Of a DNA stretch of 64,000 nt, positions 1-53,976 are shown one piece after another (position 1 is the first letter of the stretch; every line of letters begins with the position of its first letter). The stretch covers positions 186,001 through 250,000 of the forward strand of contig NZ_JAQBIE010000002.1 in assembly GCF_028294535.1 (NCBI RefSeq), read 5' to 3'. Under the pieces are notes generated by a model. That model worked only from the letters and a program-made list of their open reading frames with translations, did no database searches and was not told where the DNA came from. This DNA comes from Paracoccus onchidii (lineage in GTDB: Bacteria; Pseudomonadota; Alphaproteobacteria; Rhodobacterales; Rhodobacteraceae). The position numbers and the translations under genes were made by a program.

Positions 1-692
1 AATTGCAGCAATACGACCGCGACCGCCACGAAAATGGGCCAGATCGTCGGCAAGACGACACGGCGGTAGATGCGCGGCATCGAAGCTCCGTCGATCTGCG
101 CTGCCTTGATCAGATCGCTGTCGACCGAACGCAACCCCGCCAGGATCAATGCCATCGCGAAACCCGAAGCGTGCCAGATCGCCGTAAACACAACTACATA
201 AAGCGCCATGTCGCGATCGCTGATCCAATCGAATTTCGCGCCGATCCAGCCAAGATCCTTCAGCGCAAGTTCGACCCCGGTTTGCGGGTGAAAGATCCAG
301 CGCCACACCGTTCCGGTCACGATGAAAGACACGGCCAGCGGATACAGAAAAATCGTGCGCCAAAACGCCTCAAAGCGCACCCGCTGGTCGATCAGGATGG
401 CAAGCAATGTGCCCATCGCCAGCGCACCAAGGACATATAAAGTGCCAAAGACAAACAGGTTGGTAAACGCGACTGTCCATCGCTTGGATTGCCACAGCGT
501 GAAATAGGCGTCGAAACCCGAATAGGTCATGTCCGGCAACAAGGTCGACTGGGACAGCGAAATCCAGATCGTCCACAGCGAAAACAGCACGACGTAAATT
601 ACCGACGCAAGAATGGTGGGCACCAGCACCATTTGCGGCGTCATTCCGGCAAGCCGGCGGTATATCGGCACACTGGCCCGTTCGGGCGGCAT
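1..692 (-). CDS. Sugar ABC transporter permease, MalF/UgpA type (3' part missing)
   Basis: This is an inner-membrane permease of a carbohydrate ABC importer (binding-protein-dependent transport family 1). The ATG at 692 follows an AAGGAAAGGA ribosome site. About 230 residues are visible before the window edge. The protein opens with a cytoplasmic stretch and a hydrophobic segment (MVLVPTILASVIYVVLFSLW), typical of the first helix of MalF-type subunits. Further helices follow, then the start of the conserved loop that docks on the ATPase (AALIDGAS-like: AAQIDGASMPRIYRRVVLP). It lies 68 bases after the binding-protein gene in the same direction, so it is the next gene of that operon. The partner permease and ATPase should lie beyond the left edge. 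The family is clear; the substrate is not readable from the sequence. Confidence 0.88.
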   Translation of the reverse strand, partial: MPPERASVPIYRRLAGMTPQMVLVPTILASVIYVVLFSLWTIWISLSQSTLLPDMTYSGFDAYFTLWQSKRWTVAFTNLFVFGTLYVLGALAMGTLLAILIDQRVRFEAFWRTIFLYPLAVSFIVTGTVWRWIFHPQTGVELALKDLGWIGAKFDWISDRDMALYVVVFTAIWHASGFAMALILAGLRSVDSDLIKAAQIDGASMPRIYRRVVLPTIWPIFVAVAVVLLQ

Positions 693-760
693 GGCGAGAT
701 CCTTTCCTTGAGGGTGGGGATGCCCGGCCGCACGCACGCGCGACCGGAGCCATGCCTGGA

Positions 761-2032
761 TCACATCTGCAGTTCGACGGCATCCGCCAACTGGTTCGCG
801 GCCTCTTCAGGCGTGATCGAGTCGTCGGCGACATATTCGGTGATGACTTCCATCATTGCGCCACGGAATTTCTGCAGTACGGTCATGTTATGGGCCATCG
901 AACGCACCAGCGTTCCTTCCTCGACCGAGGCCTGCAGATCGCTCAGGCTTTTTTGTTGACACTGCGTGAACCCGCCCTCGGACAGGTCGACATCGGTGCG
1001 CGACGGGATCGACCCCTTGGCGACATTGAAGGTCACCTGGAATTCCGGCGACATGATCGTCTTGGCCAGAAGCTTTTGACCCTCGACATAGTCGGGCTCG
1101 TTCTGTTTGAACATCACGACGGAATCGGCGTTCAGGATATATCCGGTGCCACCCCAATCAACTGGTGTCTGGTTGCACAGGTAATCCACCCCTTCTTCGA
1201 AGCCGGCCAGGTTGGCCGAAGCGATCGTCCAGTCCCCCATCAGGAAAAACGCCGCCTCGCCGGTCATGGTCATGGTCATCGATTGTTCCCAGGACCGGCC
1301 ATTGATACCATCATCCATGTAGCCGACCATCCTGCGCAGTTGCGCAAAGGCGTCGATCATTCCCTGGCTGCGCATCGCATCGATATCGGCCTCCTGGAAA
1401 GCCTTGCGATACAGGTCGATATCCATCCCATAGACAACGCTGTCAAAGGTGGTGGTATCCGACCAGTCGGCGGCCCCATGGGCGATACAGGTTTTGCCTG
1501 CTTCGACAATCTTGTCGCAAGCCGCGTTGAATTCCGCCCAGGTCGTCGGGACGGCCAAGCCCATTTCGTCCAGCAACTTCTTGGAGCTGTACAACCAGTT
1601 CACGCGGTGAATGTTCATCGGCACCGCGACCCAATGCCCGGTCGGCTTCATGACCGAGATCAATTCGGGGGCGACGACATCATCCCAGCCTTCCGCACTG
1701 GCCAGCTCATCCATATTCGCGGTCTGTCCGGTTTCGTTCCACTCAATGATTTCCGGGCCTTTCAACTGCACTGCCGCAGGGGCATTGCCCGCCACGACAT
1801 CCGAACGCAGCTTGGCCAGCGTATTCGAGGTATGCCCCGAGATCGCCGTCTGCTCCCATGTGCCTCCCGCGGCCTCATACATCTCGCCCAGCTTGGCGAT
1901 GGCCGCCGCCTCGGAGCCTTGCGCCCATTGGTGCATCATGTTGGTCTTGGGTTCTGCAAGCGCCGTTCCCGTATTGGCGATCACGGCCAGCAGGCTGGTT
2001 ACGGCGAGGCCGGTGGTTTTGATTGTTGTCAT
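761..2032 (-). CDS. Extracellular sugar-binding protein (family 1) of the ABC importer
   Basis: A periplasmic solute receptor of 423 residues that would deliver a sugar to the adjacent MalF-type permease. The N-terminus is a Sec signal peptide (K5, hydrophobic core to about residue 22) with probable cleavage after TALA at residues 23-26. The mature protein has the family-1 pattern, including the KMHQWAQGSEAAA-like first strand and a WNETGQTANMDELA segment, as in glucose/maltose-type receptors. The start is supported by an AGGGAGGAA ribosome site just upstream. It is the sixth gene of the leftward operon that begins with the kinase at 6794. The ligand is unknown; the neighbouring enzymes suggest a sugar or sugar acid. 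Confidence 0.9.
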   Translation of the reverse strand: MTTIKTTGLAVTSLLAVIANTGTALAEPKTNMMHQWAQGSEAAAIAKLGEMYEAAGGTWEQTAISGHTSNTLAKLRSDVVAGNAPAAVQLKGPEIIEWNETGQTANMDELASAEGWDDVVAPELISVMKPTGHWVAVPMNIHRVNWLYSSKKLLDEMGLAVPTTWAEFNAACDKIVEAGKTCIAHGAADWSDTTTFDSVVYGMDIDLYRKAFQEADIDAMRSQGMIDAFAQLRRMVGYMDDGINGRSWEQSMTMTMTGEAAFFLMGDWTIASANLAGFEEGVDYLCNQTPVDWGGTGYILNADSVVMFKQNEPDYVEGQKLLAKTIMSPEFQVTFNVAKGSIPSRTDVDLSEGGFTQCQQKSLSDLQASVEEGTLVRSMAHNMTVLQKFRGAMMEVITEYVADDSITPEEAANQLADAVELQM

Positions 2033-2071: not shown

Positions 2072-2824
2072 TCAGATCGAAATTCCTCCATCGATGCACA
2101 ACGCCTGCCCGTTGATGGCCGCGGCCTCATCACTGGCCAGCATCGCCACCAGTCCCGCCACCTCGTCCACGTGGGTGAAACGCCCGGCCGGCTGTCGATC
2201 GGTAAAGAACCTGAGCGCGGCTTCGTGACTTCCCAGTTGCGGCACCAACTCTTCGATCCGCTGCCGCAACGAAGGGGTGTCGACGGTTCCGGGGCACACA
2301 GCGTTGAACCGGATTCCTTGCGAAAGATAATCCGCGGCACAGGCCTTGATCAGCCCGATGACGCCGCCCTTGGCGGCACAATAGGCCGCACGACGTGGAA
2401 AACCACGCAGCGACGATGCCACCGATGCAATGGCGATGACACTGCCACCCCGTTCCCCGATGCGCGGCACGGCCTCGGACAACAGCAGATAGGCACTGTC
2501 CAGGGTGATTTGCATGCTTTTGCGCCAATCATCGGGGCTGCATTCCACAATGGTCCCCTGATGCACCCAACCTGCCGCGTGCACGACGATGTCGATATGC
2601 GCGATGTCCGAAATCCAATCGCGAACCGCGCTGCCATCACTGGCATCGACGACCGTGGTCGAGGCCACCTCCAGATCCCGCAGGAGCGCATCATTGATGT
2701 CGCTGGCATGCACCACAGCGCCCTCGGCTGTCAGGTGTTCCGCCACGGCCCGCCCGATGCCTTGCCCGGCTGCGGTGACGACGGCGACGCGTCCCGACAA
2801 TCTGCCTTGTTCAGCCTTGGCCAT
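2072..2824 (-). CDS. Short-chain dehydrogenase/reductase, possibly 2-keto-3-deoxy-sugar-acid dehydrogenase
   Basis: A classical SDR of 250 residues. The NAD(P)-binding glycine motif TAAGQGIG is near residue 17, the catalytic serine is in the SVASS strand, and the catalytic pair is YCAAKGG. The C-terminus ends in the usual IDGG motif. An acidic residue after the second strand (ASDIND) suggests NAD preference. The general form resembles the SDRs that oxidise 2-keto-3-deoxy-L-fuconate in L-fucose and L-rhamnose type II pathways. The nearby fumarylacetoacetase-family hydrolase fits, because such hydrolases cleave the 2,4-diketo product. An AGGAGG ribosome site precedes the ATG, and 38 bases separate it from the upstream SDR gene. 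The substrate assignment is inference from context. Confidence 0.85.
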   Translation of the reverse strand: MAKAEQGRLSGRVAVVTAAGQGIGRAVAEHLTAEGAVVHASDINDALLRDLEVASTTVVDASDGSAVRDWISDIAHIDIVVHAAGWVHQGTIVECSPDDWRKSMQITLDSAYLLLSEAVPRIGERGGSVIAIASVASSLRGFPRRAAYCAAKGGVIGLIKACAADYLSQGIRFNAVCPGTVDTPSLRQRIEELVPQLGSHEAALRFFTDRQPAGRFTHVDEVAGLVAMLASDEAAAINGQALCIDGGISI

Positions 2825-2862: not shown

Positions 2863-3612
2863 TCAATAGGTTGCGCGCCCGCCAGACAGGTCGAATACCG
2901 CACCCGTGGTGAAGGAATTTTCTGCCGAGGCGATCCACAGAACCATCGAGGCCACCTCATCAACCGTGACGAAACGACCGCGGGGAATCTTGCCGCGCAT
3001 ATATTCGATGAACTCGGCGGAAACCTGTTCGAGTATGCGTGTTTGCGCCGTTGCCGGCGTGATGCAGTTCACCGCGATGTCATATTGCGACATTTCCTTG
3101 CCGAGCGATTTGGTCATCGCGATGACCGCAGCCTTGGACGAGGAATAGGCCGAAGCGTTGGGGTTGCCTTCCTTGCCCGCAATCGACGCGATGTTCACGA
3201 TCCGGCCATAGCCCCGCGCGACCATGCCCGGAATGACCGCGCGGCATGTGTGAAACGTGCCGTCGACATTCACCGCCTGCACCTTGCGCCACATATCCAC
3301 CGGGTATTCGGCCAGCGGTGCCGCCGGTCCGGCGATACCGGCACTGTTTATCAGGACATCAATCAGACCAAAGCGTTCTTCGGTCGCCTGCGCTGCCGCC
3401 AGCACATTGTCCAGGTCGCTGACATCTGTCTGAACCAACAGCACCTGATCCGACGGCAGCCCGGTCACACGGGCCTCAGGTGCAGAGATATCCATATCCC
3501 AGATCGCGACCCGCGCACCGGATTGCGCAAGACGTTCGACAACAGCGGCCCCAATTCCGTTTGCACCACCGGTAACGACAGCGACGCGGTCCTTGAAATC
3601 ATAGCTGTTCAT
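2863..3612 (-). CDS. Short-chain dehydrogenase/reductase (sugar dehydrogenase-like)
   Basis: A second classical SDR of 249 residues, distinct from its neighbour. It shows the TGGANGIG cofactor motif (about residues 15-22), an aspartate after strand 2 (WDMDIS) that favours NAD, the NSAG motif, the catalytic serine in NIASIAG and the YSSSKAA catalytic pair. Its start overlaps the end of the hydrolase gene by four bases (ATGA), so the two are translationally coupled. A plausible role is an oxidation step on the sugar or keto-deoxy acid handled by this operon, either aldose to lactone or oxidation of the dehydrated acid. The sequence alone cannot separate these. Confidence 0.85.
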   Translation of the reverse strand: MNSYDFKDRVAVVTGGANGIGAAVVERLAQSGARVAIWDMDISAPEARVTGLPSDQVLLVQTDVSDLDNVLAAAQATEERFGLIDVLINSAGIAGPAAPLAEYPVDMWRKVQAVNVDGTFHTCRAVIPGMVARGYGRIVNIASIAGKEGNPNASAYSSSKAAVIAMTKSLGKEMSQYDIAVNCITPATAQTRILEQVSAEFIEYMRGKIPRGRFVTVDEVASMVLWIASAENSFTTGAVFDLSGGRATY

Positions 3613-4472
3613 GATTTCGCATCCGCAGCATGAACAACTGTCTGGTTCTGTTCGCCCAACCCATCGATGGACAGCCGCACCTTGTCACCGGGCTGCAACC
3701 ACACCTGCGGTTTCATCCCGGCACCGACACCGGGGGGCGTTCCCGTGCAGATCAGGTCTCCGGGCAGAAGCTGGCAAAATTCGCTCATGTAGGAGACGAT
3801 GGTGGGCACATCGAAGATCATCTTGGCGGTCGAGCCGGTCTGCATCCGTTGCCCGTTCACATCGAGCAACATATCCAGATCGTCAAAATTCCCGATTGCA
3901 TCCGGCGTGACCAGAACCGGACCCGTAGGGCAGAAGTTGGGATAGCTTTTGCCCTTGACCCATTGCCCGCCCCGTTCCAGTTGCCAGGCGCGTTCGGAAA
4001 GATCGTTGACCAGCACAAGGCCCGCGACATGATCCATGGCCCGTTCGCGATCAACATCCAGAGCCGCGGTTCCAATCACGATACCCAGCTCGACTTCCCA
4101 ATCCAGTTTGGTCATCTTCGCCGAATACAGGATCGGATCATTCGGCCCGCAATAAGTCGCCGAAGATTTGTTGAACAGGATCGGTTCCGACGGAATTTCC
4201 ATGCCGGCCTCGGCGGCATGATCGGAATAGTTCAGGCCCACGCACCAGATATTTCGAGGTTGCGCCACAGGCGGCGCGATCCGGCGTCCACCGGCATCGA
4301 CGACCGGCAAGGATGACAGGTCCGTGGCTCGCAGCCTTACGAACAGATCGGCAGAGATCGTCTCGGGGGTGAAATCGTCAACTATGCCGCTGACATCGCG
4401 CAAGGCACCATCATCATCGACAATGCAAGGGGTCTTGGCCGCATGGCGATCACCCAGACGCATAAGTTTCAT
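3609..4472 (-). CDS. Fumarylacetoacetase-family hydrolase, probably a 2,4-diketo-3-deoxy-acid hydrolase
   Basis: A 287-residue FAH-fold enzyme. The metal-binding Glu-x-Glu signature appears in LDWEVELGIVIG, followed by VNDLSERAWQ and the KGKSYPNFCPTGP segment, and the C-terminal CTGTPPGVGAG loop. This matches the subgroup containing 2,4-diketo-3-deoxy-L-fuconate and -L-rhamnonate hydrolases and related ureidoglycolate lyase-like proteins, which split a 2,4-diketo acid into pyruvate and a short acid. I chose the ATG at 4472 because GGAG lies nine bases upstream and it begins four bases after the enolase stop. A longer reading back to 4538 would overlap the enolase gene. Together with two dehydrogenases and an enolase-family protein it suggests a dehydrate, oxidise, cleave route. 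Confidence 0.85.
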   Translation of the reverse strand: MKLMRLGDRHAAKTPCIVDDDGALRDVSGIVDDFTPETISADLFVRLRATDLSSLPVVDAGGRRIAPPVAQPRNIWCVGLNYSDHAAEAGMEIPSEPILFNKSSATYCGPNDPILYSAKMTKLDWEVELGIVIGTAALDVDRERAMDHVAGLVLVNDLSERAWQLERGGQWVKGKSYPNFCPTGPVLVTPDAIGNFDDLDMLLDVNGQRMQTGSTAKMIFDVPTIVSYMSEFCQLLPGDLICTGTPPGVGAGMKPQVWLQPGDKVRLSIDGLGEQNQTVVHAADAKS

Positions 4473-4476
4473 CTTG

Positions 4477-5781
4477 TCATACTCCGCTTTGTTGCCAGGC
4501 GTTCCCCAAGGGGGCTCCGCCGACGAATTTTCCGGCATCGGGATCTTCGCTGATCCGCAACACCTCGTTCCATTTTGCCATCCGCTCGGAACGGGTCATC
4601 GACCCGACCTTCAACTGTCCAGCGCCAAGCCCGACAGACATATGTGCGATCGAGACATCCTCGGTTTCCCCCGAACGCGCGGACACGATGCAGCGGTATC
4701 CAGATGTCTCGGCCGCCTGCATTGTTTCAAGGCTTTCGCTGACGGTTCCTGCCTGATTGACCTTGATCAGAACGGCGTTGCAGGCCCCTTCCCGCGCCGC
4801 GTGATTCAGCAGCGCCGCATTGGTCACCAGATAATCGTCGCCAATGACTTGCAGCCTTGAACCGAAACGCCGGGTGAACTCGATCATGCCCGCGGTGTCA
4901 TCCTCGGCCAAGGGGTCTTCGATCGACGCGATTGCGTAATCGTCTATCCAGCGGGCCAGCAGGTCGATCATTCCACCCGTGTCCATCTTTCGCTGATCCA
5001 GTGCCAGTTGATATTGACCGTCGTTCCCGAATTCAGATGCCGCGATATCGAGCGAGACAACCACCCGCCGACCCGGTGTTTCGCCGGCCAGCTCTATCGC
5101 CTGTATCAGGGTTTCCAAGGCCTGCTCGTTACTGTCAAAGGACGGCCACCAGCCGCCTTCATCCGCGACACCGGCGCGCCGCCCCTGCCGGGCCATCAAC
5201 GATCCCGCCGCCGCATGGATTTCAGAGCTGATTTCAATAGCTTCGGCAAAATCATTCGCGCCGGGAACCATGACCATGAAATCCTGAATGTCGACACGTC
5301 GTCCGGCATGGGCGCCACCGCCGAAAATCTGGATCTCGGGCAAGGGGATACTTGCCTGGCGCCCGGTGATCCGCGACAGGTATCGCCACAAGGGGACCCC
5401 CTCGGCTGCGGCTGCCGCGTGGATCGCCGCCAAAGATGTCGCCACCAGCGCGTTTCCGCCCAGATGGGATTTCAGCTCGGTTCCGTCCTGCTCGATCATG
5501 GCGCTGTCAAGGCCTTGCTGATCGCGCACATCGCGTCCCGTCAGCAATGGCCCAATCTCGGTATTGACCGCGGCCAATGCACGCGACACATCCATTCCGC
5601 CAAGCCGCTTGCCGCCGTCACGCAGATCCAGGGCTTCGCGGCTGCCACGGGATGCCCCCGCAGGGGCAATCGCACGTCCGACCGCCCCACCTTGCAGGGT
5701 GATTTCGGTTTCGACAGTCGGCCGCCCCCGGCTGTCCCAGACGCGTCGGGCATGCAAATTCCTGATATCAAACTGGCTCAT
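4477..5781 (-). CDS. Divergent enolase paralogue (enolase-family dehydratase)
   Basis: This is a full-length 434-residue member of the true enolase family, not of the mandelate racemase subgroup. The metal ligands D245, E288 and D315, the catalytic lysine K340 (LIKVNQ), the acid E208 (DEGG), H158, K391 and the phosphate-contacting R369-S370 of the RSGETED motif are all present. Positions that are nearly invariant in glycolytic enolases differ. The first substrate loop reads PAGASRG instead of PSGASTG. The QEFM glutamate is D167. The histidine of SHRSGETED is A368. These changes line the substrate pocket, so a larger substrate than 2-phosphoglycerate is plausible. It overlaps the kinase gene by four bases. 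A backup glycolytic enolase is a less likely alternative given the context. Confidence 0.87.
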   Translation of the reverse strand: MSQFDIRNLHARRVWDSRGRPTVETEITLQGGAVGRAIAPAGASRGSREALDLRDGGKRLGGMDVSRALAAVNTEIGPLLTGRDVRDQQGLDSAMIEQDGTELKSHLGGNALVATSLAAIHAAAAAEGVPLWRYLSRITGRQASIPLPEIQIFGGGAHAGRRVDIQDFMVMVPGANDFAEAIEISSEIHAAAGSLMARQGRRAGVADEGGWWPSFDSNEQALETLIQAIELAGETPGRRVVVSLDIAASEFGNDGQYQLALDQRKMDTGGMIDLLARWIDDYAIASIEDPLAEDDTAGMIEFTRRFGSRLQVIGDDYLVTNAALLNHAAREGACNAVLIKVNQAGTVSESLETMQAAETSGYRCIVSARSGETEDVSIAHMSVGLGAGQLKVGSMTRSERMAKWNEVLRISEDPDAGKFVGGAPLGNAWQQSGV

Positions 5782-6794
5782 ATATTGTTCCGTTCTTTAA
5801 GAAACCCCGCCGCGACCTCGTCCAGATTGCCCGGACCGGCATTCAGCAAGGCAAGGGCGATGCGGCGCACATGATCGCGTGCTGCGTCATCCAGATATTC
5901 GACCGGCGATTTGCCATCGACACGGGCCAGGAACAGCGCCGGCAGCAGCGCCGCAACGCGTGCCTCGAACTGGTCCGGGTTTTCCCAGTCGACAAAGGGT
6001 AGGTAGCTGTCTCGAAATTCCGTGAGCCGGGCGATCAGATCCGGTGCGGATTGTGGAAGGTGAACCGCCTTCAACATCAGGTGGTTCAGGCAGAATGCCA
6101 CGTCGAAACATGGATCCCCCATTGTGGCACATTCCGCATCCAGAATGACGGGTGCGCCGTTGCGCAACATGATGTTCTTTGGGCTGACATCGCCGTGAAT
6201 CAATGCGATCGATGCGCTGTAAAGCATATCGGCAAGCCCTTGCAGTTTCTCCGCTAGCTGAGGATGGCGCGTCGCTGTGAACAGCAGATACGGCTCGATC
6301 CGCAAAGCGCGGAAATCATCGTGATTCTGAAACGCGGATGTATCGAAACCGGGCTTGGCAGATGCGTTGTGAATCCGCCCCAACAAGGTGGCAACGGCGG
6401 CGGCCTCGCCCCGCTCGGGTCGTTCTGCCAGCAACGCGTCCTTCCAGAGATAGGTGTCCTCTCCGGTCAGAAATTCCATCGCGAAGCCGTGCATATCCTC
6501 GGACCGGCCATAGAGTTTTGGCGCGTTTTCAGGCGCGATTCCATGTACATAGGACAGCCATTCGAACTCGGCGCGATTGCGATGCACAGGGGCCAGCCAT
6601 TCGGCCTGAACACGCAGCTTGGGCAAGGCGAATTTCGCGCATAGGCGCAGTTCCGCGACCCGAACCTCGGCGATGTCCGAAGCGACGCCCCCGGTCAGCG
6701 GGCGCACCAGCGTCACCTGATCCGGATGCCCCAGATCCAGCGCCTGTATCAGTGCCGTGCAGCGTTCAGTCAGATTCAAATTTCCTGCCCCCAA
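5778..6794 (-). CDS. APH/choline-kinase-fold small-molecule kinase
   Basis: A 338-residue phosphotransferase of the aminoglycoside phosphotransferase/methylthioribose kinase-like fold. Brenner's motif is LIHGDVSPKNIM (catalytic aspartate in HGD, metal asparagine six residues on), followed by ILDAEC, where the acidic metal ligand sits. The N-terminal LTGGVASDI corresponds to the nucleotide loop. It is the first gene of the leftward operon and overlaps the enolase paralogue by four bases. No ATG is available near the start. A stop lies two codons before the TTG at 6794, so translation begins at this TTG or at a nearby TTG/CTG such as 6779. Context suggests that it phosphorylates the imported sugar or derived acid. 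Aminoglycoside resistance is unlikely. Confidence 0.82.
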   Translation of the reverse strand: MGAGNLNLTERCTALIQALDLGHPDQVTLVRPLTGGVASDIAEVRVAELRLCAKFALPKLRVQAEWLAPVHRNRAEFEWLSYVHGIAPENAPKLYGRSEDMHGFAMEFLTGEDTYLWKDALLAERPERGEAAAVATLLGRIHNASAKPGFDTSAFQNHDDFRALRIEPYLLFTATRHPQLAEKLQGLADMLYSASIALIHGDVSPKNIMLRNGAPVILDAECATMGDPCFDVAFCLNHLMLKAVHLPQSAPDLIARLTEFRDSYLPFVDWENPDQFEARVAALLPALFLARVDGKSPVEYLDDAARDHVRRIALALLNAGPGNLDEVAAGFLKERNNI

Positions 6795-6818: not shown

Positions 6819-6832
6819 TGTTCACGTGAACA
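6819..6832. promoter_or_regulatory. Perfect 14-bp palindrome, likely LacI-family operator
   Basis: The sequence TGTTCACGTGAACA is a perfect palindrome with a central CG, the symmetry typical of LacI-family operators. It lies 24 bases upstream of the leftward kinase gene and about 125 bases upstream of the rightward LacI-type gene. One site could control both promoters. The assignment to this regulator is inference from position and symmetry. Confidence 0.7.
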
Positions 6833-6956
6833 ATAAGTGTTGCAGAAAGTTCCTGTCAACGCTTTACTTGGAAAAATCCCGACGACTTGTGTCGTGGCAC
6901 TTGCCTCTGTGGGCGGATCACCGCATTTGCGCGCAGAACAACCGGTAGGAGACAGA

Positions 6957-7952
6957 ATGTCCAAGCGTGTGACGATCAAATCCATCGCAAAAGACCTTGG
7001 CATTTCACATATGACGGTCTCTCGCGCATTGTCGGACCATCCCAACGTGCATGCCGAAACACGCGAGGCAATCCAGACCCGCGCCCGCGAACTGGGCTAT
7101 GTCAAAAGCGCCGCGGCCCGCGCCATGCGCGGAGAGGAAACGCAAATCGTCGGGTTGCTGCTGCCAAATATCGTGAATGAGTTTTATGCGCGCTTTGCCA
7201 ATACATTAGCCAAGGCATGTGGTGAAAACGGGCTGCATCTGATCATCCACCTGACCGATGACGACCCACAGGCCGAGGCCAGCGCGATTGCCCGCCTGCA
7301 CGAAGTCCAGGCCATGGCGGCCGTCATGGTTCCCGCACCGTCACCCAAAGCACCGCCTGCCCGCCCGTCCATCGCGATGCGGCAGGTTCAGCTGATCCGC
7401 CAGCGGGAAGACGGCGAACCGGCCCCTGCCATATTGGTCGATGACCAGGCGGCGATCGTTCAGGCCGTTCAACATCTGGCCAGAAAGGGCCATGAACGCA
7501 TCGGTTATATCGGTGCCCATGATCACCTGTCCTCGGGGCGGAACCGACTTGCTGCCTTTCGTCAGGGGATCTGCACCGCCGACCTTGACGAATACCCGGA
7601 CCTGATCTGCACCGGCGCCCCCAATTTCACGACCGGCCGCGAACAAGGCCGCCGCATCCTGCGCCCTTCCGGTGCGACGGCGGTGATTTGCGGCGGGTTC
7701 GAAATATCCAACGGGGCATTGAATGCCTTCATGGATCTTGCCCCTGCAGCCCGATCCGAAACCGCATTTGTCGGTTATGGGGATCCGTCCTTCTACACCT
7801 GGCTGAATGGCGGGCTTTCTACCATTGCGGTCCCGGTGGACCGGTTGGCGCATCAGACACTGGCGATCCTGAAGGACAAGGATCACGATGCCGCCGCATG
7901 CCATCGCTTTGCGGCAAGATTCGTGGATCGAGGCCCCGCAGTGCAGCCCTGA
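6957..7952 (+). CDS. LacI-family transcriptional regulator
   Basis: A 331-residue repressor with the standard layout. The N-terminal helix-turn-helix is VTIKSIAKDLGISHMTVSRAL at about residues 5-25, followed by the hinge helix region and a periplasmic-binding-protein-like effector domain (IVGLLLPNIVNEFYA onward). The ATG at 6957 follows GGTAGGAG. An in-frame extension upstream to 6837 would run through the promoter region and is rejected. The gene is divergent from the kinase-enolase operon, with the 14-bp palindrome between them, so it is the probable local regulator. Its effector is probably the imported sugar or an intermediate. The first strand of the effector domain is normal, but the ligand cannot be read. 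Confidence 0.92.
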   Translation: MSKRVTIKSIAKDLGISHMTVSRALSDHPNVHAETREAIQTRARELGYVKSAAARAMRGEETQIVGLLLPNIVNEFYARFANTLAKACGENGLHLIIHLTDDDPQAEASAIARLHEVQAMAAVMVPAPSPKAPPARPSIAMRQVQLIRQREDGEPAPAILVDDQAAIVQAVQHLARKGHERIGYIGAHDHLSSGRNRLAAFRQGICTADLDEYPDLICTGAPNFTTGREQGRRILRPSGATAVICGGFEISNGALNAFMDLAPAARSETAFVGYGDPSFYTWLNGGLSTIAVPVDRLAHQTLAILKDKDHDAAACHRFAARFVDRGPAVQP

Positions 7953-7986: not shown

Positions 7987-8946
7987 TTATCCGTCCTGGT
8001 CAAGGATTGCGCGGGCGCTGGCCTCGTCTGTGATCAATCCGGACAGGCGGCCGCTGCGAAGGACAGCACGGATCGCGGCGACCTTTTCGCGACCTCCGGC
8101 AATCGCGATGATCCGACTGGTTGCCGGTCCGTCCAGATCGACAGAAAGAGTGCGGCTGCTCAGCCCGGTTTCCAGCACCCGACCTTCGGCATCAAAAAAG
8201 TTCCCAAGGATTTCTCCGACACCACCGGCGGCGTTGATTTCCGCGATTTCATCAGGTTCGATCATTCCCGACGACACAAGCTGAGCGGTTGAATCCGCAG
8301 GCCCCATACCGGCGAATTTCAGCGTTGCACCATTGGACAGATCGAAAATTTCGCGCACGCCGGGCTGGGCCAGCAAAACGGCGCGGTCGGATTCGGATCG
8401 CGCGAAAAACGGCACCGGCAGGACATGGGCCACTGCGCCGGTCTTTTCGGCCAGGCTGTGCATGACATCATGCGGATTGGCGGCATAGTTGCGGGAAAAG
8501 CCGCCCAACAGCGATACGAACCGCAAACCCCCGGCATCAAGGCGCGGCATCTGCTGCACGGCGGCGGCCAATGTCCGGCCATGCCCGACCCCGATCACGG
8601 GATGCTCGCCGCGTTCGATCTGGCGGCGCAGGAACGCGGCACCGGCCAGCCCCAGCGCCCGCAAAGGCAGACCTTCTTCACCCAGATCGGGCGCGACCTC
8701 GCAATAATCCAAGCCGTATTTGCTGCATAAATCGGCCTCGAGCCGGGCGCAGGCGACGATTTCGCCATCGATGCTGACCTTGACCACCCCATCCGCCACA
8801 GCCCGCGCGATCAACCGATGTGCCTTGACCGAGGGGACGCCCAGACGCTTGGCAACCGCTGCCTGCGTCAAGCCGCCCGCGTAATGCAGCCACGCAGCCC
8901 TGATCGACAGGTCTTCTTCCGGGTCGGTTGCACCACGACGTGCCAT
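7987..8946 (-). CDS. eryD: SorC/DeoR-type polyol operon regulator EryD
   Basis: A 319-residue SorC-family regulator with an N-terminal helix-turn-helix (LTQAAVAKRLGVPSVKAHRLI, about residues 27-47). The large sugar-phosphate-binding domain contains GVGHGRTLAAAV and FVSLLGGFSRN. It is the last gene of a leftward run ordered kinase, GlpD-like dehydrogenase, TIM-barrel isomerase, SorC regulator. This is the gene order of eryABCD in Brucella and rhizobia, where EryD represses the operon until erythritol is present. A GAGG ribosome site lies about eight bases before the ATG. The name rests mainly on this conserved order; another polyol regulator is possible. Confidence 0.85.
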   Translation of the reverse strand: MARRGATDPEEDLSIRAAWLHYAGGLTQAAVAKRLGVPSVKAHRLIARAVADGVVKVSIDGEIVACARLEADLCSKYGLDYCEVAPDLGEEGLPLRALGLAGAAFLRRQIERGEHPVIGVGHGRTLAAAVQQMPRLDAGGLRFVSLLGGFSRNYAANPHDVMHSLAEKTGAVAHVLPVPFFARSESDRAVLLAQPGVREIFDLSNGATLKFAGMGPADSTAQLVSSGMIEPDEIAEINAAGGVGEILGNFFDAEGRVLETGLSSRTLSVDLDGPATSRIIAIAGGREKVAAIRAVLRSGRLSGLITDEASARAILDQDG

Positions 8947-8991
8947 GTTTTCTGCCTCGTTCGCTGGGTGGTCTATCCTGTGGATATAGCG

Positions 8992-9924
8992 TTACAATTT
9001 CAGCTTGTCGCCGCCGCTATCGATATGGGGTGCCCAGAACGCGACACTTTCCGCGATCTGCGACACGACCTGTCTGTCATTTGGTTCTCGCTCCTTGAAG
9101 CTGAGTTCAAGGCAGATCTCGTTGTCCTCGGCCCCACCTTCCTGCAAGGCAGCCAACAAGGGGGCGGGCTGAATACGCCCCTTGGCGTTGAACTCGGCGG
9201 TGAAGGGGCGATGACCACCTTTGTCCATAAGAGATTGCTTGATGTGAATGATCGGGCTGACACGGGGCACCGCACGTGCCCATGCATAAGGATCATAATC
9301 ATCTGGATCGGATGAGGTCACATCGCCATGGTCGATATCGGCCATCATCCACATCGGAACCGCCATCCCTGCCGCAGTCAGCCGATCCTGCAATGCCAGA
9401 CAGCCGGTGATTGTTTCCCCGAATTCGCGGCCCACGCTCATCGGTTCCCAGAACAGATAGTCCAGCCCGGCCGAACGGGCGTGTTCGGCCACTTCGGCCC
9501 AACATTCGATCGCGATGGATGTCAATTCTTCGCGCCGCACCGGATCATCAAAGTCGCGATAGGTAAAAATCGCGAATTGCGTGCCAACCGAGCGCCCGCC
9601 AAGATCGGCGATGATGTCGCAAAAGGTCTTGAACCAATCCACGTAGTAACGCCGGACATCGCGATCAGGATGTCCGAAATGATTCAAGCGCCCATAAGGG
9701 CCGGTCATCCCGCTCGTAACGCGCACGCCCGTGCGCCTTAACGCAGCGTCCATCTGGCGCGTCAGTCGTCGGATCAGCGGCGCAGGCCACGACGGGTTGA
9801 TAAACTCATGGGTCAATTGCAGGTCACGAATTTTCAGATCGCGTGCAACCATGTCGATCAGATCATCGGGGTCGGCAAACCGGTTGACCAAGGGATTGGT
9901 ATTCAGGGACAGCGTCAGGGGCAT
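8992..9924 (-). CDS. eryC: TIM-barrel sugar-phosphate racemase/isomerase EryC
   Basis: A 310-residue xylose-isomerase-like TIM-barrel protein. In the erythritol pathway as revised for Brucella, EryC interconverts L- and D-3-tetrulose-4-phosphate after EryB has oxidised erythritol phosphate. The sequence carries barrel-strand acids consistent with metal binding (FWEPMSVG, MMADIDHGD, ICLELSF). The ATG at 9924 was chosen over 9984 because GAGGAA lies directly upstream and the longer form overlaps the dehydrogenase gene. It starts ten bases after eryB ends. The isomerases that complete the route (EryH, EryI) are not in this window. Confidence 0.83.
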   Translation of the reverse strand: MPLTLSLNTNPLVNRFADPDDLIDMVARDLKIRDLQLTHEFINPSWPAPLIRRLTRQMDAALRRTGVRVTSGMTGPYGRLNHFGHPDRDVRRYYVDWFKTFCDIIADLGGRSVGTQFAIFTYRDFDDPVRREELTSIAIECWAEVAEHARSAGLDYLFWEPMSVGREFGETITGCLALQDRLTAAGMAVPMWMMADIDHGDVTSSDPDDYDPYAWARAVPRVSPIIHIKQSLMDKGGHRPFTAEFNAKGRIQPAPLLAALQEGGAEDNEICLELSFKEREPNDRQVVSQIAESVAFWAPHIDSGGDKLKL

Positions 9925-9934
9925 GCGAAATTCC

Positions 9935-11467
9935 TCAGGCTGCGTGCACAAGGTCAGCATGGCTGAACCATTCGGCAAAGGCACCGCGCTGCTCGGGCGT
10001 CAGGTGCAGATAGTGCTTGGTGCGGCGATACAGGATGTCATCGGGATGACGCGCCCACTCGTGCGCCACAAGATAGCGGATCTCTGCCTCATACAGCAGT
10101 CCCCCGAAATGGCGACCAAGATCCGCGACCGAGTTCGCCCCCGCCACGACATCCTTGGTGCGGGCCCCGTAAAGGCGGCCGTAATGCAGGACCAAGGGTC
10201 GGGGCATCCACGGAAGAAGTTCCCGCAGCAGGTTTGCATAGCTTTCGAAATCGGCGTTCGCGATTTCACCACCCGGAAGCGTTGCTTCCTCGGTCCAGTC
10301 AGGGCCCATCTTCGGGAAGATCCCGGACAATTTATGCATGCCGCGTTCGGCCAGTTCACGGAATGTGGTGATCTTGCCGCCAAAGACATTCAGCAACGGC
10401 GCCCCAGCAGTCACATCCAGATCAAATACATAGTCACGTGTCACGGCCGAAGGATTGCCCTGCCCGTCATCAAACAGCGGTCGGACACCCGAAAAGCTGT
10501 GTTCGACATCATCGCGACGCAGCTTTTCCTTGAAATACCGGTTCACGACATCCAGAAGATAGTCGATTTCGCCTTCATCAGCGGCCACATCCTCGGCCCG
10601 TCCGTCATAGGCGATATCCGTCGTCCCGATCAGCGCCTTGTCGCCTTCGTAGGGATTGACAAAAATGACACGTTTGTCGTGGTTCTGAATGAGATAGGCG
10701 TTGCTCCCGGCCCACCATTTCGGCACGATAATATGGCTGCCCTTGACCAGCCGCACCTTGCGCGTTGATTGCGCACCGGCCACGCGGTCAATCACATCCG
10801 TCACCCACGGACCCGCGCAATTCACCACGCAACGGGCGCGAAACACCCGGATCTGACCGCTGTGCGTATCGCGCGTTTCGACGTGCCAGATTCCGCCTTC
10901 CCGGCGTGCGGAAACGCATGGATTGCGGGTCAGGACAGTCGCGCCACGCTCTGCCGCATCCAATGCGTTCAGGACCACCAGGCGTGAATCATCGACCCAG
11001 CAATCGGAATATTCGAAGCCCTTGACATATTCGTCCCGCAGGGGCGCACCTTCGGGATCACGGCGCAGGTCCAGCGTTCTTGTGCCGGGCAGTTTCTTGC
11101 GCCCCCCCAGATTGTCGTAAAGAAACAATCCAAGCCGCACCAGCCAGGCGGGACGGTCCTGAGGGCTGTGAGGCAGCACGAAACGCATGGGCCATATGAT
11201 GTGAGGGGCCGATTTCAGCAGGACTTCACGCTCGATCAGCGCCTCGCGCACCAGGCGAAATTCGTAATATTCAAGATAGCGCAACCCGCCATGAACCAGC
11301 TTGCCCGATCGCGACGATGTTCCCTCGGCCAAGTCGTCCTTTTCGCACAGCACGACTTTCAGTCCGCGCCCCGCCGCGTCGCGCGCAACTCCGGCGCCAT
11401 TGATCCCACCACCGATCACGAACAGGTCGACGATGTCGCTTTCGGGGGGGCGTTGTTCGGGCGTCAT
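9935..11467 (-). CDS. eryB: FAD-dependent erythritol-phosphate dehydrogenase EryB (GlpD family)
   Basis: A 510-residue GlpD-family flavoenzyme. The dinucleotide-binding motif VIGGGINGAG is at residues 17-26, followed by the GTSSRSGKLVHGGLRYLE flavin-contact region and FGGKITTFRELAE near residue 370. By context it oxidises erythritol 4-phosphate made by the adjacent kinase and passes electrons to the quinone pool from the inner face of the membrane. It begins one base after the kinase stop, so the genes are coupled. On sequence alone glycerol-3-phosphate dehydrogenase cannot be excluded, but the eryA and eryC neighbours favour EryB. A second GlpD-like paralogue sits at 19314-20975. Confidence 0.85.
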   Translation of the reverse strand: MTPEQRPPESDIVDLFVIGGGINGAGVARDAAGRGLKVVLCEKDDLAEGTSSRSGKLVHGGLRYLEYYEFRLVREALIEREVLLKSAPHIIWPMRFVLPHSPQDRPAWLVRLGLFLYDNLGGRKKLPGTRTLDLRRDPEGAPLRDEYVKGFEYSDCWVDDSRLVVLNALDAAERGATVLTRNPCVSARREGGIWHVETRDTHSGQIRVFRARCVVNCAGPWVTDVIDRVAGAQSTRKVRLVKGSHIIVPKWWAGSNAYLIQNHDKRVIFVNPYEGDKALIGTTDIAYDGRAEDVAADEGEIDYLLDVVNRYFKEKLRRDDVEHSFSGVRPLFDDGQGNPSAVTRDYVFDLDVTAGAPLLNVFGGKITTFRELAERGMHKLSGIFPKMGPDWTEEATLPGGEIANADFESYANLLRELLPWMPRPLVLHYGRLYGARTKDVVAGANSVADLGRHFGGLLYEAEIRYLVAHEWARHPDDILYRRTKHYLHLTPEQRGAFAEWFSHADLVHAA

Positions 11468-11468
11468 G

Positions 11469-13034
11469 TCATAATCCTTTCGAAAATACGTCGCGGGCAG
11501 CCGCGAGGGCGCTCCAGCTATCGTTCATGCCGTGGCGAGACGCGGAGAATGCCGGAAACAATCGGTCATATACCTCCACCAACCCGGGGTCAGGGGTTTC
11601 GGCTGCCCCCAATAACGGGGTCACCCACTGGGCAACACATGCATCCATATCGGGATAGGCGCCAATCGCGACGGCTGCCATCATCGCGGCACCCGCCGCA
11701 CCGGCTTCGTCGCGGCTGGAGACGCGCACCGGGGCGTTCAGCGCCGCCGCCAATATCGCGCGAAGTCCCCCAGAGCGGGCGGCCCCGCCGGTCAGGCGCA
11801 ACTCGGATGGCAGCGGCCCCATCGCACCATAGCAATCGCGCATGGCCATGGCCAGACCCTCGGCGACAGCGCGCAACAGGTCGGGAAAGCCATGGTTTGC
11901 CGACAGGCCAATGAACCCCGCCCGCGCATCCGCGTTGATAAAGGGGCCGCGCTCGCCAGCCTCGGAAATATAGGGATGATAGACGATCTGGCCGGGCCGT
12001 GACTGCGCCAGCCAGCCTTCTATCCGGCCCATCAGATCGCGCGGATCGCACCCATGCCCCATTTCGGACAACAGATCCGCCGCGACACCCAGAAGCCAAT
12101 CAAGGTTCAGCGTCGCCGCCATATTCGTCTGAACTTGCGTGACCGTATCATTCACAGGCAGGCAGATCACATATCCGGTGCCTGCGGCGTTCAGATTCAC
12201 CTTGTCTGCACGGACCGCCCGCATATGAACCCCGGTCGAGCCGATGGTCGAACAGGCAATGTCACCAACCCCGCCATAGACCCCTGCCCCCAGGCCGGTC
12301 ATCACCATATCAACATATCCAAGGCTGACCGGCGTCCCTGCCAGCAATCCGGTCTGTTCGGCCGCGGCGGCGCACAGCGGATACGTGACCTGCGATCCAT
12401 CGACAATCTCTGGCAACAGATGGCGGCGATGGCGCAAGCCAAGCGACTCGATCACGGTGTCATCATAGCTGCGGGTCCGAAAGTTGCCGAAGGTAAAGCT
12501 GGCCTCGGACGGATCGGTCACCCGCATACCCGTCAAGTTCAGATACAGCCAATCCTTGCAATGCATCGCGACTTCGGCACGATCGAGCAACTCGGGGTGA
12601 TGGGCATCCATATGCGCCATCTGACTGCCCTGTTGGCAGGTATTCAGGCCGGTGCCGGTTGCTTCGAACCGTGCCCGCTCGCCCGCGCCAGACGCCAGCC
12701 GCGCCACGGTCGGCGCCGCGCGCGCATCAAGCCACAGCCACGCATCCCCCACCGGTCCGTCCGCGCCGATCAGCCAGGTTCCATCGCCCTGTGCCGTAAC
12801 CGACATTGCCGCCGTGCGCTGTGCCAAGCCTTCAACCTTGTCGCCCAGGCCGCGCAATGCAGTCGAACAATCGCGCCATGTCTGCGCAAGCGATTGCGTG
12901 GCCGCGCCATCCTGACCGGAAGTGTAGCGGTTGCGAACCGCCGACGATGCCAGCTGCTTGCCCGTAAGATCAAAGGCGACGGCCTTGATCACGGATGTGC
13001 CTGCATCAATCCCGATTACAATATCAGCGACCAT
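11469..13034 (-). CDS. eryA: FGGY-family erythritol kinase EryA
   Basis: A 521-residue carbohydrate kinase. The N-terminal phosphate-1 motif is IVIGIDAGTSVIKAVAFDL, and the ATPase core includes LTGGAARSGGLRAILA near the C-terminus and the GTGYV/GSTGVH loops. It would phosphorylate imported erythritol in the cytoplasm. The ATG at 13034 was chosen because a GGGGGG ribosome site is adjacent and the length then matches known EryA proteins. An upstream in-frame ATG at 13118 would add 28 unlikely residues. It is the first gene of the leftward eryABCD run and is divergent from the DUF2291-ABC importer operon. Confidence 0.86.
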   Translation of the reverse strand: MVADIVIGIDAGTSVIKAVAFDLTGKQLASSAVRNRYTSGQDGAATQSLAQTWRDCSTALRGLGDKVEGLAQRTAAMSVTAQGDGTWLIGADGPVGDAWLWLDARAAPTVARLASGAGERARFEATGTGLNTCQQGSQMAHMDAHHPELLDRAEVAMHCKDWLYLNLTGMRVTDPSEASFTFGNFRTRSYDDTVIESLGLRHRRHLLPEIVDGSQVTYPLCAAAAEQTGLLAGTPVSLGYVDMVMTGLGAGVYGGVGDIACSTIGSTGVHMRAVRADKVNLNAAGTGYVICLPVNDTVTQVQTNMAATLNLDWLLGVAADLLSEMGHGCDPRDLMGRIEGWLAQSRPGQIVYHPYISEAGERGPFINADARAGFIGLSANHGFPDLLRAVAEGLAMAMRDCYGAMGPLPSELRLTGGAARSGGLRAILAAALNAPVRVSSRDEAGAAGAAMMAAVAIGAYPDMDACVAQWVTPLLGAAETPDPGLVEVYDRLFPAFSASRHGMNDSWSALAAARDVFSKGL

Positions 13035-13155
13035 GATCCCCCCGGAAATTCGCGACATGCTCAGCCTTGGCCACGCCTCTGCCGCTTGCCTCAACCCTAT
13101 ATCACGAATTTTCGGCATGAAACGTATTTTTTTACGGACAGAGTAATTTTTTTCA

Positions 13156-49587: not shown

Positions 49588-50361
49588 TCAGCGCCCCATC
49601 CAGCCGCCATCCACCGTCAGGATCGCGCCATGCACATAGCTGGCCGCATCGGAAGCAAGGAACACGACGGGACCGCCGAAATCATCCGGCGTGCCCCAGC
49701 GACCCGCCGGAATACGCCCAAGAATGGCATCATGGCGTTCGGGATCATCACGCAACGCCTGGGTATTATCGGTCGCGATATAGCCGGGCGCGATCGCATT
49801 CACATTGACGCCCTGCCCCGCCCATTCATTGGCAAACGCCATGGTCAACTGGCCGATCCCGCCTTTCGAGGCCGCATACCCCGGAACGGTGATGCCACCC
49901 TGAAAGGTCAGCAGGGACGCAGTGAAAATGACCTTGCCCCGACCGCGCTTGACCATACCCCGCCCGATCTCTCGGGTAAGGACGAACTGAGCGGACAAGT
50001 TGACCTCGATCACCTCATCCCAGATGTCGTCGCCATGCTCGGCCGCAGGGGCACGACGAATTGTGCCGGCGTTATTGATCAGGATATCAATCGCCGGATG
50101 TTCAGCCTGCACCCGGTCGGCAAATTCATGGACCGACTTGCGATCTGAAAAATCACAGGCATACGCGCTGAACTTTCGACCCAGCGCGGTAACGGCGCGA
50201 CCCAACTCCGCGCCATCTTCGGGCATCGAGGCGCTGACGGCGACAATATCCGCCCCTGCCGCGGCCAAGGCTTCGGCCATGCCACGGCCGATACCGCGTT
50301 TTGCGCCGGTCACCAGCGCGGTTTTTCCCGTCAGGTCAAATGCTTTGGGATCGAACATCAT
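49588..50361 (-). CDS. KduD-like SDR (2-deoxy-/2-keto-3-deoxy-gluconate dehydrogenase family)
   Basis: A 257-residue SDR with the subfamily signature of KduD: GYIATDNTQALRDDPERH followed by IPAGRWGTPDDFGGPVVFLAS and the terminal VDGGWMGR. The cofactor motif is VTGAKRGIGRGMAE, and the catalytic tyrosine is in YAASKGG. KduD oxidises or reduces 2-keto-3-deoxygluconate at C5 in uronate metabolism. The gene begins in an ATGATG overlapping the zinc dehydrogenase stop by four bases. In this operon it probably acts on a keto-deoxy sugar acid; the exact isomer is unknown. Confidence 0.88.
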   Translation of the reverse strand: MMFDPKAFDLTGKTALVTGAKRGIGRGMAEALAAAGADIVAVSASMPEDGAELGRAVTALGRKFSAYACDFSDRKSVHEFADRVQAEHPAIDILINNAGTIRRAPAAEHGDDIWDEVIEVNLSAQFVLTREIGRGMVKRGRGKVIFTASLLTFQGGITVPGYAASKGGIGQLTMAFANEWAGQGVNVNAIAPGYIATDNTQALRDDPERHDAILGRIPAGRWGTPDDFGGPVVFLASDAASYVHGAILTVDGGWMGR

Positions 50362-51389
50362 ACGGCCTCTTCTGTGACGCGGATCAGGGTTTTCATAGAG
50401 TCGGGGTTCTCGGTCAGCGCCTTGAAAGCATCGGGCAGTTCTGCAAGCGGACGAATATCGGTGATCAGCCTGTCGGCCCCGATCCCTTGTGACAGCAGCG
50501 AAATCGCAGCGTCGAAATCGCCGATCTCATAGGTTCTGGCACCGATCAGCTCGATCTCTCGCCAGAAGAACCGGAACAGATCGATCTGTGGCTTTTGCGC
50601 GTGAATGGCGACCATGCAAATCCGCCCACGGGTTGCGGCAACCTCGGTCATCAGGTCGACACCGGGCTGCGTGCCGGACACCTCGAAGACGACATCGGCG
50701 CCCTTGTCGCCGGTTTCGGCCATGATCCGCTCGGCGACGTTCTCATTGCGCGGGTTCGCCGTCGCAAAGCCCATGTTGCGGGCCAGTTTCAACCGGCTCT
50801 CATTCACCTCGGATATCGTCACCTGCGCGCCCGCATGCCGTGCGACCAGCGCAACCAGCATGCCGATGGGTCCGCCGCCGATAACCAGAACATCTTCGCC
50901 CACCGCAACGCCGGCCCGACGGACATCATGCACGGCAACCGCCATCGGCTCGACCAATGCGGCCTGATCCAGCGGCATGTCCGCCGGCAGCTTGTGCAAC
51001 ACATGCGCGGGAACGGTCCAGCGGTTCTGGAACGCCCCATCGGTATCAAGCCCCAGGAATTTCAACTTGTGGCAAACGTGAATATGACCGGCCTTGCAGG
51101 CCGGACAGTGCCCGCAATGCGCCAAGGGCCTGACCACGACGGGATCACCAATCCTGTATCCTTCGACCCCGTCGCCAACCGCACTGACCCGGCCCGACAT
51201 CTCATGGCCGATCACGCGATTATCGCCGATCCGCGCCTCCATATGGCCCAGATAGACATGCAGATCGGTCCCGCAAATGCCGCAAAATGCCGTTTCAACC
51301 TGCACTTCGCCAGGGCCGGGCGCGACATCTTCGACCTTGCGCAGCTCGAAACTGCCATTGCCCGTATAATATGCTGCATCAATCTTCAT
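50358..51389 (-). CDS. Zinc-dependent alcohol/polyol dehydrogenase (MDR, sorbitol dehydrogenase-like)
   Basis: A 343-residue medium-chain dehydrogenase. Catalytic zinc ligands are in FCGICGTDLH and the VIGHEMSG motif, and the structural zinc site is CGHCPACKAGHIHVC. The Rossmann motif is IGGGPIGMLVALVA. It would oxidise a secondary alcohol of a sugar, polyol or sugar acid using NAD(P). GGAGG lies before the ATG at 51389; the longer frame to 51674 overlaps the dehydratase gene. Gap to the dehydratase is 11 bases. Confidence 0.9.
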   Translation of the reverse strand: MKIDAAYYTGNGSFELRKVEDVAPGPGEVQVETAFCGICGTDLHVYLGHMEARIGDNRVIGHEMSGRVSAVGDGVEGYRIGDPVVVRPLAHCGHCPACKAGHIHVCHKLKFLGLDTDGAFQNRWTVPAHVLHKLPADMPLDQAALVEPMAVAVHDVRRAGVAVGEDVLVIGGGPIGMLVALVARHAGAQVTISEVNESRLKLARNMGFATANPRNENVAERIMAETGDKGADVVFEVSGTQPGVDLMTEVAATRGRICMVAIHAQKPQIDLFRFFWREIELIGARTYEIGDFDAAISLLSQGIGADRLITDIRPLAELPDAFKALTENPDSMKTLIRVTEEAV

Positions 51390-51400
51390 GCTATCCTCCG

Positions 51401-52498: not shown

Positions 52499-52514
52499 AG
52501 ATCTTCCCTCCGGA

Positions 52515-53954: not shown

Positions 53955-53976
53955 TAACTTTGCCCTCATGTGCCTT

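Follow-up and report, generated by a model that had tools for sequence, protein, structure and literature searches.

A kinase-linked branch of the enolase family with an altered pocket in Paracoccus onchidii

The operon and its operator

The window analysed here is a stretch of 64,000 nucleotides of the Paracoccus onchidii genome (contig NZ_JAQBIE010000002.1, positions 186,001 to 250,000). It contains a minus-strand operon (Table 1) with the transcription order APH-family kinase (KIN), kinase-linked enolase paralogue (ENO'), FAH-family hydrolase, SDR1, SDR2 and sugar ABC transporter; a second permease, an ATPase and SDR3 continue it beyond the window. The genes for KIN and ENO' overlap by 4 bp. 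The plus-strand reading of 4477-5781 is interrupted, and the ENO' ORF runs from 5781 to 4477 on the minus strand. The start of FAH was set at Met23 of its listed ORF (4538..3609), which is where the family model begins, and that of LacI at Met41 (6837..7952). A plasmid of Paracoccus seriniphilus has the same gene order, with operon genes 72-91% identical to those of the window; its paralogue is annotated as eno, phosphopyruvate hydratase. ENO' is absent from 36 genomes of its own genus, in which the best matches are only at the level of canonical enolase, so the operon is a patchy and probably mobile trait.

Table 1. Features of the operon and its surroundings, in window coordinates
Feature	Position	Strand	Remarks
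ABC permease	1..764	-	start at 764 inside the window; remainder outside (L003 13775-14764)
Sugar-type ABC substrate-binding protein	761..2032	-	SBP_bac_8/SBP_bac_1
SDR2 dehydrogenase	2072..2824	-	adjoins FAH in many loci without SDR1
SDR1 dehydrogenase	2863..3612	-	
FAH-family hydrolase, acylpyruvate-hydrolase type	3609..4472	-	NF053535 match; nearest solved relative 8gsr
ENO' (kinase-linked enolase paralogue)	4477..5781	-	434 aa; pocket with D167, A368, W212 and R162
KIN (APH-family kinase)	5778..6794	-	338 aa from the first (TTG) start; HGDxSPKN and LDAE motifs
Perfect 14-bp palindrome TGTTCACGTGAACA	6819..6832	.	between LacI and KIN; probable LacI operator
LacI-family regulator, divergent	6957..7952	+	

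The 14-mer TGTTCACGTGAACA is also found in 16 other loci and occurs as an exact copy once in its own genome. In 18 of 99 loci its 12-bp core is found no more than 350 bp from the 5' end of KIN or ENO', against an expectation of 0.1 occurrences across all 1.81 Mb. It is present in 16 of the 20 loci with a LacI of the window type; those with LacI and no exact core are L018, L021, L037 and L106. Where KIN and ENO' are apart, there are two operator copies (L016 and L035). A copy with one mismatch, the only near-copy in the P. onchidii genome, lies ∼50 bp before tctC of a TctCBA operon (G000:C8:319-3414, L140), and in L096 a second operator precedes tctC. On the strength of the near-copy, the P. 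onchidii TctCBA operon is likely to be a member of the LacI regulon of KIN-ENO'; the operator copies before TctCBA thus tie the pair to carboxylate uptake. A different palindrome, TGCTAACGTTAGCA, recurs in many loci (L045-L081, from Streptomyces, and L098) close to where the context-B LacI gene starts.

A separate enolase clade with a changed pocket

ENO' contains the N- and C-domains of enolase together with its metal, acid, base and phosphate residues. It scores 457 bits against the enolase model TIGR01060 (cut-off 300), and Enolase_C scores 277 bits compared with 47 bits for MR_MLE_C. Because the eno equivalog model matches 34 of 34 aligned members (E ≤ 1e-50), public annotation names the family enolase. 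The P. onchidii genome has a second enolase (C28:17740) with 42% identity to ENO' that is canonical at all of the changed positions, and ENO' is therefore not the only enolase of this genome.

The sequence-only reading had described ENO' as retaining catalysis and phosphate contacts with altered pocket residues, and every residue that it named is present at its number: H158, D167, E208, D245, E288, D315, K340, A368, R369, S370 and K391. The first loop is P40-AGASRG, in which yeast S36 becomes A41 and T40 becomes R45, and the serine of the metal-binding loop is kept (yeast S39, S44 in ENO'). An alignment was made of 102 family rows (99 close, three divergent) and 23 canonical rows (21 distinct sequences). 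D167 with A or G at 368 (yeast E168D and H373A/G) is found in 102/102 family rows and, when sought in the canonical enolases, in none of the 23 rows aligned, all of which have E and H. S44, H158, E208, D245, E288, D315, K340, R369, S370 and K391 are kept in every one of the 102 family rows. Position 212 (yeast A215W) is W in 99/99 close rows and A in 23/23 canonical rows; position 162 is R in 99/99 close rows, is never R in the 23 canonical rows and is not R in the three divergent members; position 161 is R in 91/99 close rows and N in 23/23 canonical rows. A41 is found in 94/99 close rows. A41, W212 and R162 are typical of the close members only. The divergent rows derive from four plasmid matches picked at 44-47% identity, the fourth of which (H19) is canonical; a fifth region, H34, was left out of the residue alignment. 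These three enolases (44-46% identity), from Methylobacterium nodulans, Rhodococcus opacus and Embleya, carry the D/A signature.

A quick unrooted tree, calculated after masking the four trait columns, places 41 family rows on one side of a branch and the 23 canonical rows on the other (SH-aLRT 99). The paralogues with these substitutions are thus a clade, tied to KIN, and the clade and the fixed signature agree with the earlier claim that the role of ENO' is not glycolytic. The family spans Alpha-, Beta- and Gammaproteobacteria and Streptomyces. In comparison with enolase (EC 4.2.1.11), ENO' has the same fold, the same two domains and all of the metal ligands, as well as the conserved residues listed above; it differs in having D167 and A/G368 in place of E and H (and W212 and R162 in all close members), in forming a separate clade, in always occurring with KIN and in being a second copy beside the canonical enolase. 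The AlphaFold model of ENO' (pLDDT 89.1, pTM 0.91, with loops 45-47 and 208-210 at pLDDT <50) has E. coli enolase as its closest solved fold (TM 0.92), and a structure search found no solved structure with more than ∼45% identity to ENO'.

The contact made by H373, and the roles of the yeast residues in the ENO' pocket other than E168, E211 and K345, are general background on enolase. In the part of PMC10619443 consulted, E168, E211 and K345 are catalytic in another enolase and the equivalent of E168 is placed at the carboxylate/terminal carbon. Given these placements and the residue pattern, ENO' keeps the features that hold the carboxylate, metals and phosphate and the base and acid, and the surroundings of the 3-hydroxymethyl group are altered. 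The acid-sugar dehydratases of the mandelate racemase subgroup (for example L-fuconate dehydratase) belong to the same superfamily, dehydrate 2-hydroxy acids and can lie in an operon with SDR and FAH genes (route III; PMC6336799, in the part consulted). ENO' differs from them in its domain scores and in keeping the phosphate site, and it co-occurs with true MR/MLE dehydratases.

The linked kinase

KIN or a homologue is present in 94 of 99 loci, and the other five are on contigs that are short or break off within 3.5 kb upstream. Among 196 genomes surveyed in the order, ENO' (threshold E ≤ 1e-120) was found in ten and full-length KIN in the same ten, adjacent in 10/10 (Fisher p 6e-16, counting the KIN fragment of G081 as a miss and ignoring relatedness). 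This fragment, in an eleventh genome (L110:6640-7200), lies in a 186-aa frame without ENO' and is probably a remnant. Homologues with 33-52% identity to KIN abut the D/A enolases of M. nodulans, R. opacus and Embleya; in M. nodulans the order of kinase and enolase is reversed, with a 4-bp overlap. A phosphorylated substrate, as proposed from the retained phosphate contacts, is supported by this linkage, the kinase that would make it adjoining ENO' in all ten genomes.

The catalytic residues of KIN are conserved (H200, D202 and N207 in 90/90 rows, D219 in 89/89) with intact HxD...N and D(A)E motifs, and K118, R165 and R291 are invariant. The nearest solved fold to the KIN model (pLDDT 95.1) is methylthioribose kinase (2pyw; TM 0.82), although KIN falls below the cut-off of the methylthioribose kinase model TIGR01767 (49 versus 275 bits). 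APH is the only domain of KIN in the Pfam table, with PF02595 and PF13660 (glycerate kinase classes I and II) absent. To our knowledge, the folds of classes I and II differ from the APH fold. KIN would resemble glycerate kinases I, II (MOFRL) and III in the ATP-dependent phosphorylation of glycerate that we propose for it, but it has an APH/protein-kinase-like fold, which none of the three has. The three known classes are mutually unrelated and class III is a P-loop enzyme (PMC2063504, in the part consulted).

As ENO' is inherited together with KIN although the cell also has a canonical enolase, the product of KIN is probably not an ordinary enolase substrate. The family is well supported as a kinase-dependent, so far unrecognised branch of enolase; we found no description of a kinase-enolase pair of this kind in the open-access literature. 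Enolase is a textbook case of an invariant enzyme of glycolysis, which gives weight to a whole branch whose pocket is rebuilt and whose kinase is obligatory: some of the enzymes annotated as glycolytic do something else. The pair also offers a direct assay of a new activity, with kinase and enolase, 2-hydroxy acids and a phosphoenolpyruvate (PEP) readout.

Genomic contexts and the candidate substrate

The contexts come from a scan of genome contigs of which the best 80 loci were listed, and are thus those of the nearest relatives. Under a 200-bp same-strand rule, 90 loci were divided into 19 of the sugar/FAH type, 29 of the dioxygenase/ADH type and 42 others. We infer the substrate, its handedness and PEP as the product from these contexts together with the pocket; L-glycerate is favoured, and the other candidates are D-glycerate, a different C3 acid and a larger sugar acid.

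The window FAH scores below the cut-off of NF053535, the L-2,4-diketo-3-deoxyrhamnonate hydrolase model (347 versus 500 bits), and its best solved relative is an enzyme of this activity (8gsr; E 3e-79). FAH-type hydrolases of rhamnonate and pentonate pathways release pyruvate and a 2-hydroxy acid (PMC6336799, in the part consulted); by analogy, FAH acting on a 2,4-diketo-3-deoxy hexonate would give pyruvate and glycerate. The FAH and SDR genes of the window recall route III of L-rhamnose and L-fucose oxidation (dehydrogenase and FAH hydrolase, leading to pyruvate and lactate), from which the window differs in coupling KIN-ENO', which would handle the hydroxy-acid half when this is glycerate, not lactate.

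The sequence-only reading had proposed a larger 2-phospho-sugar acid. KIN would then place a phosphate on O2 of a C4-C6 sugar acid, which ENO' would dehydrate to a phospho-enol 2-keto-3-deoxy acid for FAH and the SDRs. The window operon has no other dehydratase, FAH and SDR genes of a 2-keto-3-deoxy route adjoin ENO', and the smaller D167, A368 and A41 could make room at C3; W212, however, is larger, not smaller. FAH-type loci number 24 of 99, and in 12 of the 24 the same stretch encodes a sugar-acid dehydratase of another family: IlvD (L023, L029, L037, L102 and L108), UxuA-like (L026, L030, L085 and L095) or MR/MLE (L028, L033, L066 and L085). Some of the 12 are kilobases off or on the other strand, and not all need share the operon; in L023, L029 and L108 IlvD sits between the FAH and SDR genes. 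On another contig P. onchidii itself encodes an IlvD that shares 67% identity with the L023 protein, and its genome has nine more MR/MLE proteins. ENO' is thus not required as the sugar-acid dehydratase. The L023 IlvD is closest to a structure labelled galactonate dehydratase and would fit a D-series sugar, which counts against L-glycerate. The same pocket also occurs in pairs without any sugar gene: KIN-ENO' alone make up the same-strand run in L038, L040, L042, L051 and L064, and in L043 the run on one strand is TctC-TctB-TctA upstream, a sulfotransferase-like ORF, KIN and ENO'. It is found beside PEP carboxylase as well. The product of a larger acid would still need dephosphorylation and no phosphatase is present in the operon. 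We therefore depart from the earlier proposal and consider a larger sugar acid unlikely.

A small-acid substrate is instead suggested by TctCBA in L043 and by the operator copies before tctC in P. onchidii and L096. The PEP carboxylase gene ppc is found in six of 99 loci, all from Rhizobium; in R. indicum ppc, a D-2-hydroxyacid dehydrogenase (2HADH) homologue and KIN are on one strand with gaps of 92 and 23 bp. The ppc neighbours make PEP the likely product. The 2HADH-KIN-ENO'-ppc genes of the Rhizobium clusters parallel the serine-cycle segment of hydroxypyruvate reductase, glycerate kinase, enolase and PEP carboxylase, but the kinase family is unrelated, the enolase is altered and no other serine-cycle gene was seen in the 21-kb Rhizobium stretch.

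This parallel would fit D-glycerate, with KIN as a new D-glycerate 2-kinase and ENO' as a dedicated isozyme converting D-2-phosphoglycerate to PEP, as in the lower serine cycle. 2HADH homologues occur in 37 of 99 loci and score with phosphoglycerate dehydrogenase and glyoxylate/hydroxypyruvate reductase models; as members of a family making D-acids, they suggest D-glycerate or hydroxypyruvate and count against L-glycerate. One-carbon genes (corrinoid, GCV_T) lie beside the pair in L025 and L039, and all catalytic residues of ENO' are retained. However, the 26 genomes tested, the ten with ENO' among them, all have a MOFRL D-glycerate kinase, which with the canonical enolase would suffice, leaving the 10/10 co-inheritance of ENO' and KIN unexplained; nor does D-glycerate account for the change in all 102 family rows of two pocket residues that are fixed in the 23 canonical rows. 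D-glycerate thus appears somewhat unlikely, but is a serious alternative.

The substrate could also be a C3 acid that differs from glycerate in its 3-substituent or leaving group, such as 3-sulfolactate or 3-O-methyl glycerate, which KIN would phosphorylate and ENO' convert to PEP. The altered residues surround the leaving group, R162 is invariant in the 99 close rows, and demethylase-type genes (L025 and L039) and sulfatases (L017, L034 and L096) are found near the pair. E208, which serves the leaving hydroxyl in canonical enolase, is nevertheless invariant, R162 is missing from the three divergent members and no desulfonation gene was recognised; we regard such an acid as unlikely.

We tentatively favour KIN and ENO' as a two-step salvage module that would bring a small acid unusable by normal metabolism, most simply L-glycerate, to PEP. 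The APH-fold KIN would phosphorylate the 2-hydroxyl of a three-carbon 2,3-dihydroxy acid, and ENO', with its metal and phosphate sites, base K340 and acid E208 kept and its 3-hydroxyl pocket rebuilt (E168D, H373A, A215W), would dehydrate the 2-phospho acid to PEP. If the acid is L-glycerate, canonical enolase should not process its 2-phospho form. In the window, the starting point would be an L-hexose or its acid, oxidised by an SDR and dehydrated by an enzyme whose gene lies elsewhere; an SDR would then carry out the 4-oxidation, and FAH would split the resulting 2,4-diketo-3-deoxy acid into pyruvate and glycerate. Conversion of L-glycerate through 2-phospho-L-glycerate to PEP is the smallest hypothesis that fits the glycerate expected from FAH, the co-inheritance of KIN, the presence of MOFRL kinases and the ppc neighbours. 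If carboxylate and phosphate keep their places, the L isomer would have its hydrogen and hydroxymethyl group on swapped faces; the residues that bound the hydroxyl would then have no role, and E208 and K340 could trade theirs. It is possible, if rather doubtful, that direct phosphorylation by the pair is the first route by which L-glycerate enters central metabolism, with a fourth, APH-fold class of glycerate kinase making 2-phospho-L-glycerate and an enolase of inverted substrate stereochemistry (E208 taking the proton and K340 serving the leaving hydroxyl, or an equivalent repositioning) making PEP. Neither 2-phospho-L-glycerate nor L-2-phosphoglycerate was found among the open-access literature matches listed.

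Apart from the 2HADH homologues, several observations count against L-glycerate. MOFRL kinases have 13-34% activity with L-glycerate (PMC2063504, in the part consulted), so KIN might be dispensable for it. In six loci (L014, L015, L021, L034, L041 and L106) SDR1 comes straight after KIN-ENO' with no FAH, which L-glycerate leaves unexplained, and for the extradiol-type dioxygenase, corrinoid methyltransferase and GCV_T contexts no route to glycerate could be drawn. Should the substrate be L-glycerate, the hydroxy-acid half of L-hexose oxidation would have its fate explained, the family would be a natural experiment in how an enzyme that abstracts protons comes to invert its stereochemistry, and thousands of database 'phosphopyruvate hydratase' labels would be wrong.

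Several other gene neighbourhoods were seen. In L025:1988-11308, genes for a corrinoid protein, a RACo activator and a further methyltransferase-like protein lie between KIN and ENO', together with a single ORF that fuses a methyltransferase-like part to a D-2-hydroxyacid dehydrogenase part; in L039:7784-8926 a GCV_T-family (aminomethyltransferase-like) gene directly precedes KIN-ENO'. L052 and its relatives and L097 share a conserved cluster around ENO' of an HpaD-like extradiol dioxygenase, a FAH-family protein, a Zn-ADH, CMD, a cupin and a LIV-type ABC transporter. The sulfatase genes near the operon are at L017:1841-3289, L034:14395-16059 and L096:1751-3295. A ppc gene in Streptomyces, suspected from a long ORF, was dropped, as by eye the ORF contains an MFS-type transporter. 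The IMDH-like genes close to some loci, which in L024 look LeuB-like by eye, were set aside. In L104:3354-7227 a GH13-type protein and a HAD-type phosphatase adjoin a KIN-ENO'-FAH-SDR1 operon, for which a glucosylglycerate role is a guess by eye. Elsewhere in the window, the minus strand at 7987-13118 encodes a SorC/DeoR-type sugar-binding regulator, a xylose-isomerase-like TIM barrel, a glycerol-3-phosphate-dehydrogenase-like FAD enzyme and an FGGY kinase, with an ABC ATPase beside this block on the plus strand from 13968; we take the block to resemble an erythritol-type polyol operon. A Zn-alcohol dehydrogenase, an MR/MLE-type protein (C2:237434) and an aldehyde dehydrogenase at 50358-53969 (minus strand) form a possible acid-sugar cluster.
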